The translations under genes and the position numbers were made by a program. The notes beneath the pieces were generated by a model. The model searched no databases, was not told the origin of the DNA, and was given only the letters and a program-made list of their open reading frames with translations. Of a stretch of DNA of 64,000 bases, positions 6,169-23,611 are shown in pieces. Each line of letters starts with the position of its first letter. Positions within the stretch are counted from its first letter, which is position 1. The stretch covers positions 186,001 to 250,000 of the forward strand of contig JARYMF010000004.1 in the NCBI GenBank assembly GCA_029907255.1, given 5' to 3'. The stretch comes from Armatimonadota bacterium (GTDB taxonomy: Bacteria; Armatimonadota; UBA5829; DTJY01).

Positions 6169-7254
6169 ATGCGAAAGAGCAATCCCATGAAATATTCACA
6201 TCGCGGTGAGTTCACACCAAGACTCGTGTTTTGGGAGCTTACCACAGCATGCAATCTGAAATGCATCCACTGTCGAGCCGTTCCCACTGAGAAGCGGTCG
6301 CCGGACGAGCTTTCGACGTCGGAAGCAAGGGTTCTAATTAACCAAATCGCTTCTTTTGCAAAACCAGTTATTGTGCTTAGCGGCGGCGAACCACTTGTTC
6401 GTGCTGACGTCTTCGAAATAGCATCCTATGCTAAGTCGAAGGAACTGCCGGTCGCGCTGGCAACCAATGGCACGCTAATCACACCAAAAATTGCTCAAGC
6501 AATCAAAGAATCAGGGATTCGGCGTGTAAGTGTGAGCATCGATGGCCCCGACGCCGCCTCCCACGACAGATTTCGACAAGCCTACGGCTCATTTGATGCC
6601 GCTTTGCAGGGAATCGAATATCTAAAAAGAGATGGCATACCCTTTCAAATCAACACGACAGTTACGAAGCAAAACGTAGACCAAATCCCAGCAATCCTCA
6701 AACTCGCGGTCAGCCGAGGGGCGGCGGCACTGCATATCTTCCTTCTTGTCCCAACGGGCTGTGGAAAAGAAATAGCCGACGATGAGATGATCGAACCAGC
6801 GGAATATGAGCGCGTGCTTAACTGGCTGTATGATCGGTCGAAAGACTCTAAAATCAACTTGAAGGCTACCTGCGCTCCCCATTACTTTCGAATCATTCAC
6901 CAACGCGCCCGAGCAGAGGGCGCCAAGATCGCCTCGGAAACACATGGCTTTGAGGCAATGACAAAAGGATGTCTTGCTGGGTCTGGGGTCTGCTTTGTTT
7001 CTAGCAAAGGCGAAGTGTATCCCTGCGGTTATCTGCCAATCTCGGCCGGGAACATACGCCAGGCCCACTTCAAGGACATATGGGATAATGCCGAAGTTTT
7101 CCGTCGCCTTCGTGACGAAGACAATCTCCACGGGAAATGTGGTTATTGCGAATTTCGGCGAATATGCATGGGATGCCGCGCCCGTGCCTACGCTCTTACC
7201 GGCGACTACCTTGCCCCAGAACCATATTGCATATACGAACCCAGGAAAAGGTGA
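6169..7254 (+). CDS. Radical SAM/SPASM protein of the NirJ/AhbC/AhbD type
   Basis: A 361-residue radical SAM enzyme. The AdoMet-binding cluster motif is C28-x3-C32-x2-C35 (TACNLKCIHC), followed by the SGGEP motif. The C-terminal SPASM region has Cys residues in CLAGSGVC, YPCGY, KCGYCEFRRIC, MGCRARAYA and PYC, an arrangement typical of enzymes that trim tetrapyrrole side chains (NirJ, AhbC, AhbD). The family catalyses radical removal of acetate or carboxyl groups from siroheme derivatives or coproheme. No other heme or d1 gene is nearby; instead selD follows after 48 bases in the same direction. So the substrate is open: tetrapyrrole by homology, or something selenium-linked by context. A second in-frame ATG at 6187 is an alternative start. 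Confidence 0.85.
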   Translation: MRKSNPMKYSHRGEFTPRLVFWELTTACNLKCIHCRAVPTEKRSPDELSTSEARVLINQIASFAKPVIVLSGGEPLVRADVFEIASYAKSKELPVALATNGTLITPKIAQAIKESGIRRVSVSIDGPDAASHDRFRQAYGSFDAALQGIEYLKRDGIPFQINTTVTKQNVDQIPAILKLAVSRGAAALHIFLLVPTGCGKEIADDEMIEPAEYERVLNWLYDRSKDSKINLKATCAPHYFRIIHQRARAEGAKIASETHGFEAMTKGCLAGSGVCFVSSKGEVYPCGYLPISAGNIRQAHFKDIWDNAEVFRRLRDEDNLHGKCGYCEFRRICMGCRARAYALTGDYLAPEPYCIYEPRKR

Positions 7255-7302
7255 TTCTTCAAATTGGGAAAAATAATAATTGCGTGAAAGGTGGTGATTC
7301 CG

Positions 7303-8352
7303 GTGGCTGAAAGCAAAATACGATTGACCTTGCTGACCCACGGCGGCGGTTGAGCGTGCAAGGTCAGCCCAGCCGACCTGGCGCAGGTTCTGCGCCGTCT
7401 ACCACCAATCACAGATCCAAATGTCCTTGTTGGCTTGAATACCGCAGACGATGCGGCGGTCTACAAAGTCAGCGACGACCTAGCGATTGCCGCTACGGTG
7501 GATTATTTCACGCCGGTGGTTGATGACCCTTATGACTTTGGGCAGATTGCCGTCGCGAATGCACTCAGCGACTGTTATGCAATGGGTGTTCAACCCTCAA
7601 TCGCGCTTAATCTCGTCGGCTTTCCAGTAAGGACTCTCCCGCTATTTGTTCTTGATCAAATTCTGGCTGGCGGAAGTGACAAAGCAAAGGAAGCAGGGGT
7701 AACCATCGTAGGCGGCCATACGATTGACGACCCCGAGCCAAAGTACGGCATGGCAGTCATCGGGTTCACCACACCAGAGGCGCCAGTCACGAATGCCGGA
7801 GCGCGGAGGGGTGATGCCCTTGTTCTAACAAAGCCACTTGGGATTGGAATAATTACCACCGGCATCAAAGCTGACGAAACTACACCTCAAGCCGCACACC
7901 AGGCTATTGAAATTATGAAAACTCTCAATCGGACCGCTTCCATAGTAATGACTGAAATCGGAGTCCATGCATGCACCGACGTAACAGGCTTTGGATTGTT
8001 AGGCCACCTCTGGGAAATGACTTCAGCAAGTAAAGTTGGGGCCGAAATATTTCTTTCCAGAATTCCTGTACTAGCTGAAGCATGGCGGCTGGTGGAGGAA
8101 GGAGTCATCCCTGGTGGCGCCTATTCAAATCGCGAATATGTGGCGGCTAACGTTACGTTCGCACCCGAGATAAAAGAAGACGCGCAGCTTATACTGAGCG
8201 ACCCGCAAACCTCAGGCGGCCTTCTCATGGCGGTTGCGCCAGAAAAGCTCGATAATCTTGTCGCGAAACTCAAATCGGCAGGCGTTCCTACCGCGGCTGT
8301 CATAGGCTCAATAACCTCGGACCTTCCAGGACGAATCAAAGTCTTTCCATAA
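7303..8352 (+). CDS. selD: Selenide, water dikinase, itself a selenoprotein (Sec17)
   Basis: SelD makes selenophosphate from selenide and ATP, the Se donor for selenocysteine tRNA and selenouridine. The reading frame crosses an in-frame UGA at 7351-7353, so a simple ORF search finds only the part after 7435. Upstream of the UGA the frame gives RLTLLTHGGG, then U17-A-C-K20, matching the catalytic Cys17/Lys20 positions of E. coli SelD; the full product is 349 residues, the family's usual length. The GTG start at 7303 has an AGGTGGTGA ribosome site, and an in-frame stop at 7285 excludes earlier starts. A SECIS-like hairpin lies at 7380-7396. Later motifs include NTADDAAVY, VGGHTIDDPEP and TDVTGFGLLGHL. 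The organism must therefore have SelA, SelB and tRNA-Sec elsewhere. Confidence 0.95.
7351..7396 (+). promoter_or_regulatory. Selenocysteine UGA and bacterial SECIS element
   Basis: UGA at 7351-7353 is followed by a perfect 7-bp hairpin: GGCGCAG (7380-7386) pairs with CTGCGCC (7390-7396). Drawn with 6 bp, the apical loop is GGTTC, starting with two guanines about 32 bases after the UGA, within the 16-37 base window known for bacterial SECIS elements. The core GCAGGTTCTGC resembles the GCAGGUCUGC core of the E. coli fdhF SECIS, the SelB-binding site. Confidence 0.85.
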
Positions 8353-8524: not shown

Positions 8525-9691
8525 TCAGCTTAAGCAAAACTTGTACACGTGTACGTCGTTTGGGCCAAAAGAATCCGTGAACGAACCACTTCTAGCTTTG
8601 ATTGCGCGATTTTCAAATAAGACTTCGATATCGCCATCTAAGAAATCGCCCAAGAATGTAACCGGCGTCTCAGCGCTCTCACGCTTGGCAGCGAAAATGT
8701 ATACGTTCGATCCTACCTTTCTAGTAGTAAACTCAATGTCGGGTGCACCTGTTGCGCTTAAAGGCAGGTCCGAAGGGGGAGCAACAAGCGCTGAATACAA
8801 TTCTGTTCCTTTTTTAAACTCACTAAGGAGCGGCCGCAAGACCTCTTCCCAAAATGTCCAATTATAGCCTAGCTCTGCATTCTTGCCCTGCAAGGCAACT
8901 GGCATACCAAAGAAAACAAGGCCACGCGCACCTTTGATGATAGCCTGGTAAGCCATATAGCGCTCCTGGTGAAAAGTTGGCATTACAAGAATCCTTTTTG
9001 GAGGCGTAACCCCGCTCCAGCAAACCTGGAGGACCATAAAGAAAGGCTTTTTCCCGCGCACAGCACGATTGATGAAGTCAGCATAATCACCTACAACGCT
9101 GATATTTTTGTTTGGCAGATGACTGTGAAGGCCCATCGGCACGGAAATTGGGTAGATGTCAATGCCAGCTATATCACATGCCTTGCAATATTTAGCCAAC
9201 AGCTCGACAGTATCCCTAGGGGCATGAACCATCCATGCAGGGTGATCGGGGTCAATTTGCTTGAGATACTTATAAGCTGCCATCATTCCAGGAATTGAGT
9301 GCTTACCCCAAGCCGGCTCGTCCATGGTTTTGTAAATTGCCAGCGCTGGATGCTCTTTAAAGCGCTCGACGAACTGTCGAAGCCGTTCCTTCCTTTCAGG
9401 ATGTTTTGGGTCAAAAACTGTCATATCGGCAATGTACGGCCAGCCATAAACCCCATGCTCAGCAAACCAGTCGAGATACTTTTGGCATTCTTCGTCCTCG
9501 GCAGGGTCATTGTGTCCTCTCCCAATGCGAAAGGAGTCCACGCCACCCTCCGCCAACACCTCAATTGCGTCTCTCCCTGTCGGATCCTTCGCTCCCAGAG
9601 GCGGCGCAAACGGAGTAAAGCAAATAGGAAACCACGGCTCGCCATTAAGAAAAATGCGTCTGTTTTCGTCAATGGTAACTTTGTTGGGCAT
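8525..9691 (-). CDS. Glycoside hydrolase-like TIM-barrel protein
   Basis: A 388-residue protein without a clear signal peptide. The N-terminal strand (FLNGEPWFPICFTPFAPP) resembles the entry into GH-A barrels (GH2/GH5/GH42-like: 'name the substrate pocket after a beta hairpin'). Repeated strand-helix units follow, with LAIYKTMDEPAWG (Asp-Glu-Pro) where the acid/base Glu of such enzymes is found. A short beta-sandwich-like tail closes the protein (about 310-388). The ATG at 9691 is chosen because GGAGG lies 5 bases before it; a GTG four codons upstream is inside that site. It follows the 1013-residue glycosidase-like gene by 45 bases on the same strand, likely co-transcribed. Substrate unknown. 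Confidence 0.6.
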   Translation of the reverse strand: MPNKVTIDENRRIFLNGEPWFPICFTPFAPPLGAKDPTGRDAIEVLAEGGVDSFRIGRGHNDPAEDEECQKYLDWFAEHGVYGWPYIADMTVFDPKHPERKERLRQFVERFKEHPALAIYKTMDEPAWGKHSIPGMMAAYKYLKQIDPDHPAWMVHAPRDTVELLAKYCKACDIAGIDIYPISVPMGLHSHLPNKNISVVGDYADFINRAVRGKKPFFMVLQVCWSGVTPPKRILVMPTFHQERYMAYQAIIKGARGLVFFGMPVALQGKNAELGYNWTFWEEVLRPLLSEFKKGTELYSALVAPPSDLPLSATGAPDIEFTTRKVGSNVYIFAAKRESAETPVTFLGDFLDGDIEVLFENRAIKARSGSFTDSFGPNDVHVYKFCLS

Positions 9692-9736
9692 TTTCTCCTC
9701 CACTCAACCTCATTATGTTTATTGATAATGAAGCAA

Positions 9737-12700
9737 TCACCAATCAATCTCCCATGGCTTAACGCCACCGGTAGTAAAGGCAAAAGCATCAAGGAACTTG
9801 CAATATTTATCGCCTTTCTTGCGCTTTGCAATCACACGAATTTCAAGGGTATTATCACCTTCTCGCAGCTGGGCTTTCCCATAATTACGCCAAGCAAACA
9901 CTATTTTTGAATCATCGTAGAGCGCCCACGGCCCGCAGAACTGCTTGTCATGCTCCTCAAGCTTGTCCGGAGCGAGGGTCCACCTGCCTCCATTCACCAC
10001 CCAATGGCAAGGCGATTTACCAACCCATTCTCTAACCCAAAGGTCAAACTCGCCAGCTTGCTGGGATTTGAACGTATATTTCGCATAGTAACCAGTCTCA
10101 GGAGAAGGGTCAACAAATGTGTCAAGAGCCCACAATGCGCCGTTCGAGAGCCTAGTCATTCCGCCATATTTGCCTAGATTGAAGTTGCTGTCAATGAAAT
10201 CCTCTGCTTCAATCCAAATATTTGGAGGGCAATTCGGCGCTTGATAGGCTGGAAATATCTCTTCCGGTTTGGCAATGTCCTCTGGAGCTAAACCATCTAT
10301 TATAAGTGCCTCCTCCCATTTCTCAGTAGGACAGTGCTTACCACGAATATATGGCACGTCAACTTCAACAATTTCAGGCTGTCTCTTCAATGGAATACGC
10401 AAGTTGAGCGAGCCGTCTTTCGCCTTGCCGCCAGCTTTCTCGGAATTAGCATATCGTGCCTTGACCTTATTAGCCTTTTCAGGCGATATCCGGATGCTCG
10501 ATTTCATTTTTTCCGACCAAAGATACGTAATAGGTCGACCAGCTAGAGTAAAGCTAAAGCCACGTATGTCAGGGTCGAGACGAAACTCTCGCACACCAAG
10601 AACCTCGGCTAGGAAACGCTCTGGCTGGTGTATCTGGTCTACTAGGGGAATGCGAAGGCCTTCTGGCTGCCAGCCTTCCTTGTCCTCAACTTCCTTGCTA
10701 ATGATTTGAAGGTTGCCTTCAATCATATTCCACACATGACCATCGGGGCTCTTAGAAAGCACCTCGCTCTTAGGTCCAGGGTTAAGAACCTGAATCCTTC
10801 GACCATCGGCGTCAGTAGCAAACTTGCTGGTGAAGTATTTGTCAAGCGACGGAATGGCACCTAGGTCCAGCCGGAAGCCAATATATGTAAGCAGCGGTTT
10901 GCCCGCCTCGATAATCCTTTCTAACTCTGCACCATATTTCAAGCTTGCCGGCGAATCATTTAGATTCGCAATGATTAGCGGCGTGTCCACCGAAGTTGTC
11001 CATGTTGGGAGAATCCATGTACCGTCTGGTCCTCGCATGATCGCGCGTGAATTACCGCCGCTGTATCCCGTCCAACCACCATCAATGCCAACAAAATCAC
11101 TCAGGGGCAGGCTAAACGCACTAGCCTCCATACGCCGTGCAGGGAACCTATAATAATACGTAGGCCGATAGTCTGGAAGCTTTGTACTACTTTCTATAAT
11201 TCGGCGGAAGGTAGCTATCCACTCAAGCTGTCGAGGATCGCGGATAAACTCGCTCTTCCAGAACTGACCGCTATTCCAAGGGCCAAATGCAAGCCCGAAG
11301 ACGAAAATCCCTTTCGCACCTGCACCCAAAAGAGCACTCATATCGGCATACATGCTTTCGCGGTCCATATGCCCAATATTTTCTAGCTGATTTTCAAAGG
11401 CGGCCTGTGAAAACTCTGTTACCACTAACCACATATTCCGCGCCGACTGTTCTACCTCCGACCAACATACGGCGGCATTCATTGGGATAAGCGTTTCACC
11501 AACGCCATATGCCTCCATCCCGATTCCGTCAAAACCTGCTTGTTCAGGGTTGATTCTGTAAGTTGCAATTGGCCCAGAATGTTTGAAAACAATCGGCACA
11601 TCTGCGATTCTTTCTTTGAAAAATTTACACAAGGCATTACAGTACCTAGCTACCCGTTCACCCAAAAAGTCTATAAAGTCATACCACGCTTGAGACCGCT
11701 TAGCATCAGTCTTGTAAATCTTCCCTGTATTCGGGTCGAAAAATACGCCAATGGCTGAGGGCTTGCAGGTTTCAACCACTCTAATAGGCACAAAACGACC
11801 GGCAGTCTCGAAATCAGGGATTTTGCTTGTCGCCGCCCATGCCTCATTTAACTTTTCAATAGATCCATACCTAGCGACTAGCCATCTTGCAAATTGCCTA
11901 CCATACTCTTGCGAAGCCGGCAGGAAAGTATGTGAAATATTCATCTCGTTTTGAAGAGGATCGACAACAAACCTAAAGCCCTTGCCAAATTTGACCTTAC
12001 TAAAGTGCTTAAGTAACTTCTCCTGATACTTTTCAAGGCCGCCCTCCCAGAAGTATGGTTGTCCCCCAATCACCTTTGGAGTAAAGCAGAGGCAAAGCGT
12101 CCGATTTGGCGGACAGTGTACATCAACTTCGAGCCCCTTCTTTTTGACAATCTCAGGCTGGCCGTTGCTGAGGTTCTTTCCGGTTGGCTCCTCCCGCTCA
12201 TAAATCTTTGCCCAACCAGCGTCAACTATCTCGCAAGTCTGCCCATCTAGGAGAACATAGATTCCACTTATTGCGTCTGGACACTCAACTCCGTAAGTCC
12301 CAGACCTTGTAATGCCATCAACCTTCAAACCTTCATTCTGTACCAAATAGCCCACCCCAGGTCCTGGTCCATCTGCAAGTTCAATGCCATATCTAAAGCC
12401 CTTTACCTCTAAGTAATCAATCACCCTTTGGAGACATTCCGGCGGACATGCCATGCAAAAGTGGATATATATGTCAATTACGCCTTTTTCTTTCAGCATA
12501 TCAATCTGATTCTTAGTAAGCTGCCAGCCAGTTTCATTCTGCTCCCATATATAAGGCGGACAATACATACCGCCAACTGGCAAGTACGGCCTTCCATCCC
12601 ATATCAAAGTGTGCGCTTGATTCACATGCCAGGGGTGCTTAACGCCGTCTCGGTCAACATAAACGCCAGAGCATGGGGGTTTGGCAATCATTGCAGCTTG

Positions 12701-12775
12701 CTCGGCATGTACGGGGAAACCAAACAATGCTAGAGAAACGCTAACAAGCAAAGCTAGAACAAAAGCCACCTTCAA
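9737..12775 (-). CDS. Large exported GH42-like glycoside hydrolase with C-terminal CBM-like domain
   Basis: About 1012 residues with a classical signal peptide ending near PVHA. The section after the barrel start has LQNEMN (Asn-Glu around residue 277), followed by a stretch of the form FARWLVARYGSIEKLNEAW, very like beta-galactosidases of family GH42, where Asn-Glu is the acid/base pair. Another Glu in VVTEFSQ could be the nucleophile. The C-terminus (about 860-1000) starts IEAEDF and looks like a CBM6/35-type carbohydrate-binding module. The TTG at 12775 is taken as start because AGAAGG lies six bases upstream and the protein then begins M-K-V-A-F; the ORF can be extended to a GTG at 12781. 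Probable extracellular or periplasmic glycanase, substrate unknown. Confidence 0.7.
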   Translation of the reverse strand: MKVAFVLALLVSVSLALFGFPVHAEQAAMIAKPPCSGVYVDRDGVKHPWHVNQAHTLIWDGRPYLPVGGMYCPPYIWEQNETGWQLTKNQIDMLKEKGVIDIYIHFCMACPPECLQRVIDYLEVKGFRYGIELADGPGPGVGYLVQNEGLKVDGITRSGTYGVECPDAISGIYVLLDGQTCEIVDAGWAKIYEREEPTGKNLSNGQPEIVKKKGLEVDVHCPPNRTLCLCFTPKVIGGQPYFWEGGLEKYQEKLLKHFSKVKFGKGFRFVVDPLQNEMNISHTFLPASQEYGRQFARWLVARYGSIEKLNEAWAATSKIPDFETAGRFVPIRVVETCKPSAIGVFFDPNTGKIYKTDAKRSQAWYDFIDFLGERVARYCNALCKFFKERIADVPIVFKHSGPIATYRINPEQAGFDGIGMEAYGVGETLIPMNAAVCWSEVEQSARNMWLVVTEFSQAAFENQLENIGHMDRESMYADMSALLGAGAKGIFVFGLAFGPWNSGQFWKSEFIRDPRQLEWIATFRRIIESSTKLPDYRPTYYYRFPARRMEASAFSLPLSDFVGIDGGWTGYSGGNSRAIMRGPDGTWILPTWTTSVDTPLIIANLNDSPASLKYGAELERIIEAGKPLLTYIGFRLDLGAIPSLDKYFTSKFATDADGRRIQVLNPGPKSEVLSKSPDGHVWNMIEGNLQIISKEVEDKEGWQPEGLRIPLVDQIHQPERFLAEVLGVREFRLDPDIRGFSFTLAGRPITYLWSEKMKSSIRISPEKANKVKARYANSEKAGGKAKDGSLNLRIPLKRQPEIVEVDVPYIRGKHCPTEKWEEALIIDGLAPEDIAKPEEIFPAYQAPNCPPNIWIEAEDFIDSNFNLGKYGGMTRLSNGALWALDTFVDPSPETGYYAKYTFKSQQAGEFDLWVREWVGKSPCHWVVNGGRWTLAPDKLEEHDKQFCGPWALYDDSKIVFAWRNYGKAQLREGDNTLEIRVIAKRKKGDKYCKFLDAFAFTTGGVKPWEIDW

Positions 12776-12905
12776 CACCACCCTTCTGGCTTTTGCGAAA
12801 TGATAATTTCCAACCGCTCAAAAGCCTCTTCCTTTGTGCACAGCTTAAAACAACTGGTAGTTAATCTTGTTCTTACACCCAGCAAATCTGCCCTTTTATA
12901 TAAAC

Positions 12906-12927
12906 ATACAGTTCCTTCTAGCTGTAT
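12906..12927. promoter_or_regulatory. Inverted repeat upstream of the GH42-like gene
   Basis: ATACAG at 12906-12911 and CTGTAT at 12922-12927 form a perfect 6-bp dyad with a 10-base spacer, about 130 bases upstream of the GH42-like gene and next to an AT-rich TATATA stretch. It could be a repressor operator. The rest of the 290-base gap holds only the cspA terminator. Confidence 0.25.
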
Positions 12928-12995
12928 TTTAAGTTACAAAATTGTGTCTTCCTTCAATTTCCAACTTGGTAATGCAAAGAATTGCATTAAGCAGA

Positions 12996-13032
12996 CAAAA
13001 AAGAAAACCCCCGCACCAACCCGGAGCGGGGG
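12996..13032 (-). terminator. Rho-independent terminator after the cold-shock gene
   Basis: On the minus strand CCCCCGC and GCGGGGG (13008-13014 and 13026-13032) form a 7-bp GC stem with an 11-base loop, followed by a T-rich run (complement of 12996-13007). It is placed 37 bases after the cold-shock gene. Confidence 0.9.
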
Positions 13033-13068
13033 CTTCGCTATCTCTAGCTATTTCAGCAGGGCGAAAAA

Positions 13069-13269
13069 TCAGGCCGGTTCCACGTTCGCCGCCTGGGGTC
13101 CCTTCGGCCCTTGGACGATGTCGAACTGGACTTCCTGTCCCTCGAAGAGATTCCTTCTACCGGTTCCGACAATTCCGGTGTAATGGACGAAGATGTCGTT
13201 CCCATCGTCCATGGCTATAAATCCATAGCCTTTGGTTTCGCTGAACCATTTGACCTTGCCGGTAGCCAT
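13069..13269 (-). CDS. Cold-shock domain protein
   Basis: A 66-residue single cold-shock domain, the usual CspA length. RNP1 is KGYGFI and RNP2 is DIFVH; the N-terminus [15 protein letters not shown] is canonical. Such proteins bind single-stranded RNA and DNA, melt mRNA structure and act as antiterminators or RNA chaperones. The ATG at 13269 has AAAGGAGG upstream, so the extra eight codons of the longer ORF (MAGKGGLG) are the translated ribosome site, not protein. A promoter at 13398-13425 gives a leader of about 120 bases with a small hairpin, as in cold-inducible csp genes; cold regulation is inferred. A strong terminator follows, so the gene is monocistronic. Confidence 0.96.
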
Positions 13270-23392: not shown

Positions 23393-23611
23393 AGCACCAC
23401 AGGATTGTCGAGAAACCCTGCTGTGTTCGTGATTTAGCCGAGGAAGTTTTGAGCCGACACTCAAAGTAAAAATGGGGCCTGATTCGGTTGTGGCGTGGCA
23501 GCCCCGCTCAAAATTTCTTTTGGGGAATCGCAAAGCAATCGTGAGGGCACCCGCCCGTGCTTTACGGGTTCAAAAACTTGTTAGGCACACGGCACCGTGG
23601 GGTTTCTAATC
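23393..23611 (+). ncRNA. ssrS: Candidate 6S RNA
   Basis: A ~215-base region with its own promoter, no ORF and a long rod-like fold. The ends pair: AGAAACCC (23411-23418) with GGGTTTCT (23600-23607), extended by GATT/AATC and, inward, by GTG/CAC pairs. Inside, AGTTTTGAGC (23445-23454) pairs with GCTCAAAATT (23506-23515), capped by a GGGG/CCCC stem; on the 3' side CCCGT/ACGGG forms a small hairpin. A closing stem, a large internal bubble and an apical stem in ~200 bases are the 6S RNA architecture, which mimics an open promoter and sequesters sigma-70 RNA polymerase. Placement just upstream of rarA fits what I recall for several Gram-positive lineages. It is not SRP RNA, tmRNA or RNase P by motif. 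No covariance search was possible. Confidence 0.55.

Follow-up and report, generated by a model that had tools for sequence, protein, structure and literature searches.

The selD gene in the window (the whole 64,000-nucleotide stretch of Armatimonadota DNA analysed here) almost certainly encodes a selenocysteine (Sec)-containing selenophosphate synthetase, in which Sec would be inserted at codon 17 by SelB and a SECIS hairpin. Our analysis confirmed the prediction of a full-length Sec-containing SelD that is broken only by the UGA, and this prediction is well supported by the frame, the downstream RNA structure, and the gene content of the genome (Table 1). All computable checks suggested in the first-pass annotation gave favourable results. 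The gene, the location of its UGA, the conserved hairpin, and the partner genes selA, selB, and selC are direct observations. Both the incorporation of Sec and the SelD enzyme activity are what we infer from homology.

Table 1. Features of the selD locus and of the Sec-related genes in the source genome. Plain positions refer to the window; C4, C7, and C11 are contigs of the source genome (G000).
Feature	Location	Strand	Evidence
selD, predicted selenide, water dikinase, 349 aa with Sec17	7303..8352	+	TIGR00476, 393 bits; 3u0o alignment, 2e-76
In-frame TGA, predicted to be read as selenocysteine, catalytic position	7351..7353	+	Only TGA/TGC/TGT in 110 homologues
Ribosome-binding site AAAGGTGGTGA, 5' of the selD GTG	7287..7297	+	Sequence; conserved in the relative from the same genus
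bSECIS upper stem-loop, 7 bp, GGCGCAG-GUU-CUGCGCC, -11.3 kcal/mol	7380..7396	+	Folding; pairing in homologues
ahbD-type radical SAM/SPASM heme b synthase	6169..7254	+	TIGR04545, 534.6 bits (cut-off 500)
selA	C11:63326-64687		598.6 bits (cut-off 267.9)
selB	C7:170484-172364		403.8 bits (cut-off 242.25)
tRNA-Sec (selC), anticodon TCA	C11:62382-62474		69.4 bits (gathering score 47)
Peroxiredoxin (L145), in-frame TGA at the peroxidatic Cys, outside the window	G000:C4:39839-40234		AhpC-TSA search

The selD reading frame and its UGA codon

The frame runs from the GTG start at 7303 to a TAA stop (8350-8352) and translates into 349 residues. It is interrupted only once, by the TGA of codon 17, around which the translation reads LLTHGGG[U]ACKVSP; the preceding in-frame stop on the 5' side of the GTG is a TGA at 7285-7287. 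Cys19 and Lys20 follow the UGA, as the first-pass annotation had noted, and a UxxK motif (U17-A-C-K20) is present. The NCBIfam profile TIGR00476 matches residues 7-315, on both sides of the UGA (393.2 bits, 7.9e-118; cut-off, 125 bits), and the Pfam domains AIRS and AIRS_C were also found. In SelD 3u0o, the nearest solved structure by sequence, a Cys lies opposite the UGA. The translation and this alignment agree with the earlier claim that the lone SelD-like frame crosses a UGA at the position of the catalytic Cys, and the ribosome-binding site together with the profile match beginning at residue 7 bears out the claim that the region before the UGA is conserved SelD sequence with its own GTG start. 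No second SelD was found in the genome, where the next-best matches are only 29-32% identical and are presumably other AIRS-domain proteins.

ORF finding with translation table 11 yields at this locus only a frame of 305 aa (7435-8352, TTG start). The statement that automatic calling misses the gene goes slightly beyond this result; the gene would be truncated to about 305 aa and not lost entirely. This short form, being an open frame in table 11, might be regarded as the main product, with readthrough of the UGA minor or absent, but such an interpretation is very unlikely: the short form has no catalytic loop, the codons upstream of it are conserved as protein, and a ribosome site precedes them.

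Conservation of the UGA codon

The TGA is found at the identical codon in a same-genus genome (G001; 97% identical protein) and in a same-family genome (G003; 71%). Among 110 SelD homologues drawn from relatives and named public genomes, the catalytic codon is TGA in 62, TGC in 28, and TGT in 20, with no other codon. Over its first 100 codons, selD differs from the gene of the same-genus genome by 18 synonymous and no nonsynonymous changes, and the 16 codons 5' of the TGA contain three synonymous changes and no nonsynonymous ones, which indicates that the 5' part of the gene is under protein-coding constraint.

These observations bear on the possibility that the true codon is Cys and was misread, or that the gene is a pseudogene broken at the UGA. 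TGA is one base away from TGC and TGT, and the table-11 ORF is truncated, which speaks for this reading. Nevertheless, sharing of the TGA by the two relatives and by 62 of the 110 homologues, the purely synonymous divergence, and the maintenance of the SECIS render an error or a pseudogene highly improbable, even more so than the short form. The restriction of the homologues to TGA, TGC, and TGT and the occurrence of TGA in both relatives led us to conclude that the TGA is not a sequencing error, in line with the first-pass annotation; the frame shift or different codon in close relatives that would count against it was looked for, and the TGA was found to be kept.

An RNA hairpin downstream of the UGA

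A bSECIS-type hairpin is located behind the UGA, where the first-pass annotation had suggested looking for one. Its 7-bp stem is perfect, its apical loop GUU begins 33 nt after the UGA, and the RNA around and 3' of the UGA folds at z = -2.55 relative to shuffled sequences. The published bSECIS model describes a loop of 3-9 nt with a G in loop positions 1-2, a stem of 4-16 bp, a spacing of 16-37 nt, and an MFE of at most -7.5 (PMC13188914), and the selD hairpin agrees with this model in full.

All seven stem pairs are formed in 42 of 61 distinct Sec homologues and in none of 48 Cys homologues, and pairs are exchanged at the same stem positions among the Sec homologues (e.g. GC to TA or AT). As a control, codons were redrawn synonymously with the protein unchanged (300 draws). 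Pairing in the Sec homologues (373 of 427 positions) exceeded these controls (mean 265, maximum 285), whereas the value observed for the Cys homologues (160) did not leave the range of the simulations (mean 146, maximum 163). The stem is thus under selection at the RNA level, and this applies only to genes with UGA at the catalytic codon.

A second hairpin between the UGA and the SECIS (7362-7378, GGTC...GACC) was rejected; it is ascribed to the protein sequence, since its pairing is not clearly better in Sec than in Cys homologues. An Rfam search at a lax threshold gave no relevant match near the selD UGA. Six other TGA triplets in the window are followed by a hairpin of bSECIS geometry, and none of them has a plausible read-through frame. 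Apart from selD, genome-wide matches to GCAGGTNCTGC included none in read-through genes.

The Sec machinery and a second selenoprotein gene

The source genome (3.23 Mb, 33 contigs, 99.7% complete) was searched for selA, selB, and selC, whose absence would speak against the first-pass interpretation; all three are present, selA and the tRNA-Sec gene sharing a contig at a distance of about 0.9 kb. The first-pass annotation had also taken the UGA as proof of a Sec-decoding organism. The UGA alone is no proof, but Sec decoding is supported by selABC and the SECIS jointly. Across 61 genomes, a clear SelD (above 200 bits) occurs in 38, and selA scores above its cut-off in 37 of these and in none of the other 23. 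The exception, G057, has a SelD with TGA in an assembly of 220 contigs in which selA was not found. The genome looks complete and its siblings G030 and G044 have selA, so that the absence is probably an assembly gap.

The peroxiredoxin gene of the source genome carries its TGA in the context FYPGDFTFV-U-PTE (TxxU). An in-frame TGA also occurs in the peroxiredoxins of G001, G003, G014, G015, and G020, and the context FTFV-U-PTE was read in the source genome, G001, G014, and G015. No internal stop was found in the best peroxiredoxin matches of the Sec-less genomes G002 and G004. A SECIS-like hairpin with the loop GGUC, recognized by eye, lies 17 nt behind the peroxiredoxin UGA; its stem exhibits a compensatory change between G014 (GGCGGC-GGUC-GCCGCC) and G015 (GGCAGC-GGUC-GCUGCC) and is shorter in the source genome (4 bp). 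With this TGA-containing gene in the same genome, SelD is not the only client of the Sec machinery.

Reassignment of UGA to an ordinary amino acid such as Trp, which might be considered given in-frame TGAs in two genes (selD and the peroxiredoxin), is the least probable alternative, to the point of being negligible, as the ORFs neighbouring selD are full-length under table 11, the genome contains selA, selB, and tRNA-Sec, and both TGAs coincide exactly with a catalytic Cys and have a SECIS-like hairpin behind them.

Other candidate selenoproteins were rejected in this partial census of the genome: no stop codon interrupts the frame of a formate dehydrogenase-like protein (C1:304227), and the HdrA-like matches included no strong match interrupted by TGA. 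A SelW-like search found nothing.

Inheritance and switching between Sec and Cys

In a maximum-likelihood tree calculated with the Sec/Cys site masked, the window SelD groups with its own genus and family, beside members of its class, a placement expected under vertical descent. The Sec and Cys states require eight changes on the tree. One switch to Cys, in G006 and G008, is recent, these two being nested among Sec forms, and the SECIS stem has been lost in them. Such switching has been described before in the SelD family (PMC1794560, PMC4561486).

Complete losses of SelD and selA occur within the window's own family, in G002 and G004, which have neither. The lineage lends itself to natural comparison: a single class includes genomes that retain Sec-SelD, genomes that recently changed to Cys-SelD and no longer have the SECIS stem, and genomes from which both SelD and selA have disappeared.

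Two further genomes were conspicuous. G012 contains a 51-residue SelD fragment with TGA (C8:114870-115022) and broken selA pieces (C3:85386-85952), one of them with TAA; these remnants look like a Sec trait in decay. Of the two SelDs in G022 (C23:7487-8524 and C121:48455-49477), only one has the TGA; the other is encoded some 1.7 kb from selA.

Comparison with known systems and proposed mechanism

The Cys-containing SelD 3u0o is the same enzyme, with HGAG-C-GCK in place of HGGG-U-ACK in the window protein; Cys replaces Sec in the Cys forms, and these have no SECIS. The bSECIS of E. coli fdhF is a minimal stem-loop of the same size as the selD hairpin and likewise has GU in its apical loop. Unlike it, the selD hairpin has no bulged U, has a 3-nt loop, and lies about 15 nt further from the UGA. 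Among prokaryotic selenoprotein families, only one is more widespread than SelD (PMC13188914), and Sec-SelD, a UxxK selenoprotein family, is widespread in bacteria (PMC13188914, PMC1794560). The window protein resembles Sec-SelD (TIGR00476) in domain, length, catalytic Sec, UxxK, downstream bSECIS, and the presence of selABC in the genome, and no substantial difference was found, the SECIS loop at 33 nt being toward the long end of 16-37. The first-pass annotation was right that Sec-SelD is already known from other bacteria, where the arrangement is common and long known. The present case is correct but ordinary and confirms existing knowledge. Its value is that an uncharacterised lineage gains a well-supported selenoprotein together with a complete Sec-decoding trait, and that a selD gene truncated by automatic calling is corrected.

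In the proposed mechanism, ribosomes would arrive at the UGA of codon 17, where SelB with Sec-tRNA-Sec, bound to the stem-loop, would insert Sec and allow synthesis of the full 349-aa SelD. Sec17, in a mobile N-terminal loop, would handle selenide, and SelD would use ATP to produce selenophosphate. SelA would then use selenophosphate to charge tRNA-Sec, which in turn would serve the synthesis of SelD and of one or more peroxiredoxins. As SelD would need Sec for its own synthesis, one might speculate, although we consider it rather unlikely, that the system is a putative self-limiting selenium sensor, in which the level of SelD rises or collapses with the selenium supply. If so, SelD-dependent proteins, including at least one peroxiredoxin, would follow selenium, and the Cys-switched relatives would have escaped the loop.

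Genomic neighbourhood

The ahbD-type gene ends 48 bp 5' of selD on the same strand and is possibly co-transcribed with it. The adjacency is kept in G001, and in G003 a gap of about 0.9 kb separates the two genes, between which no obvious functional link is seen. Elsewhere in the window, an ORF of 1014 aa (9737-12781, minus strand) and the two ORFs flanking it (8525-9703, minus strand, and 12800-13183, plus strand) have no Pfam or NCBIfam match. A comparison with known plasmids gave no near match. A 6S RNA was identified at 23412-23607 on the plus strand (Rfam RF00013, 88.5 bits).
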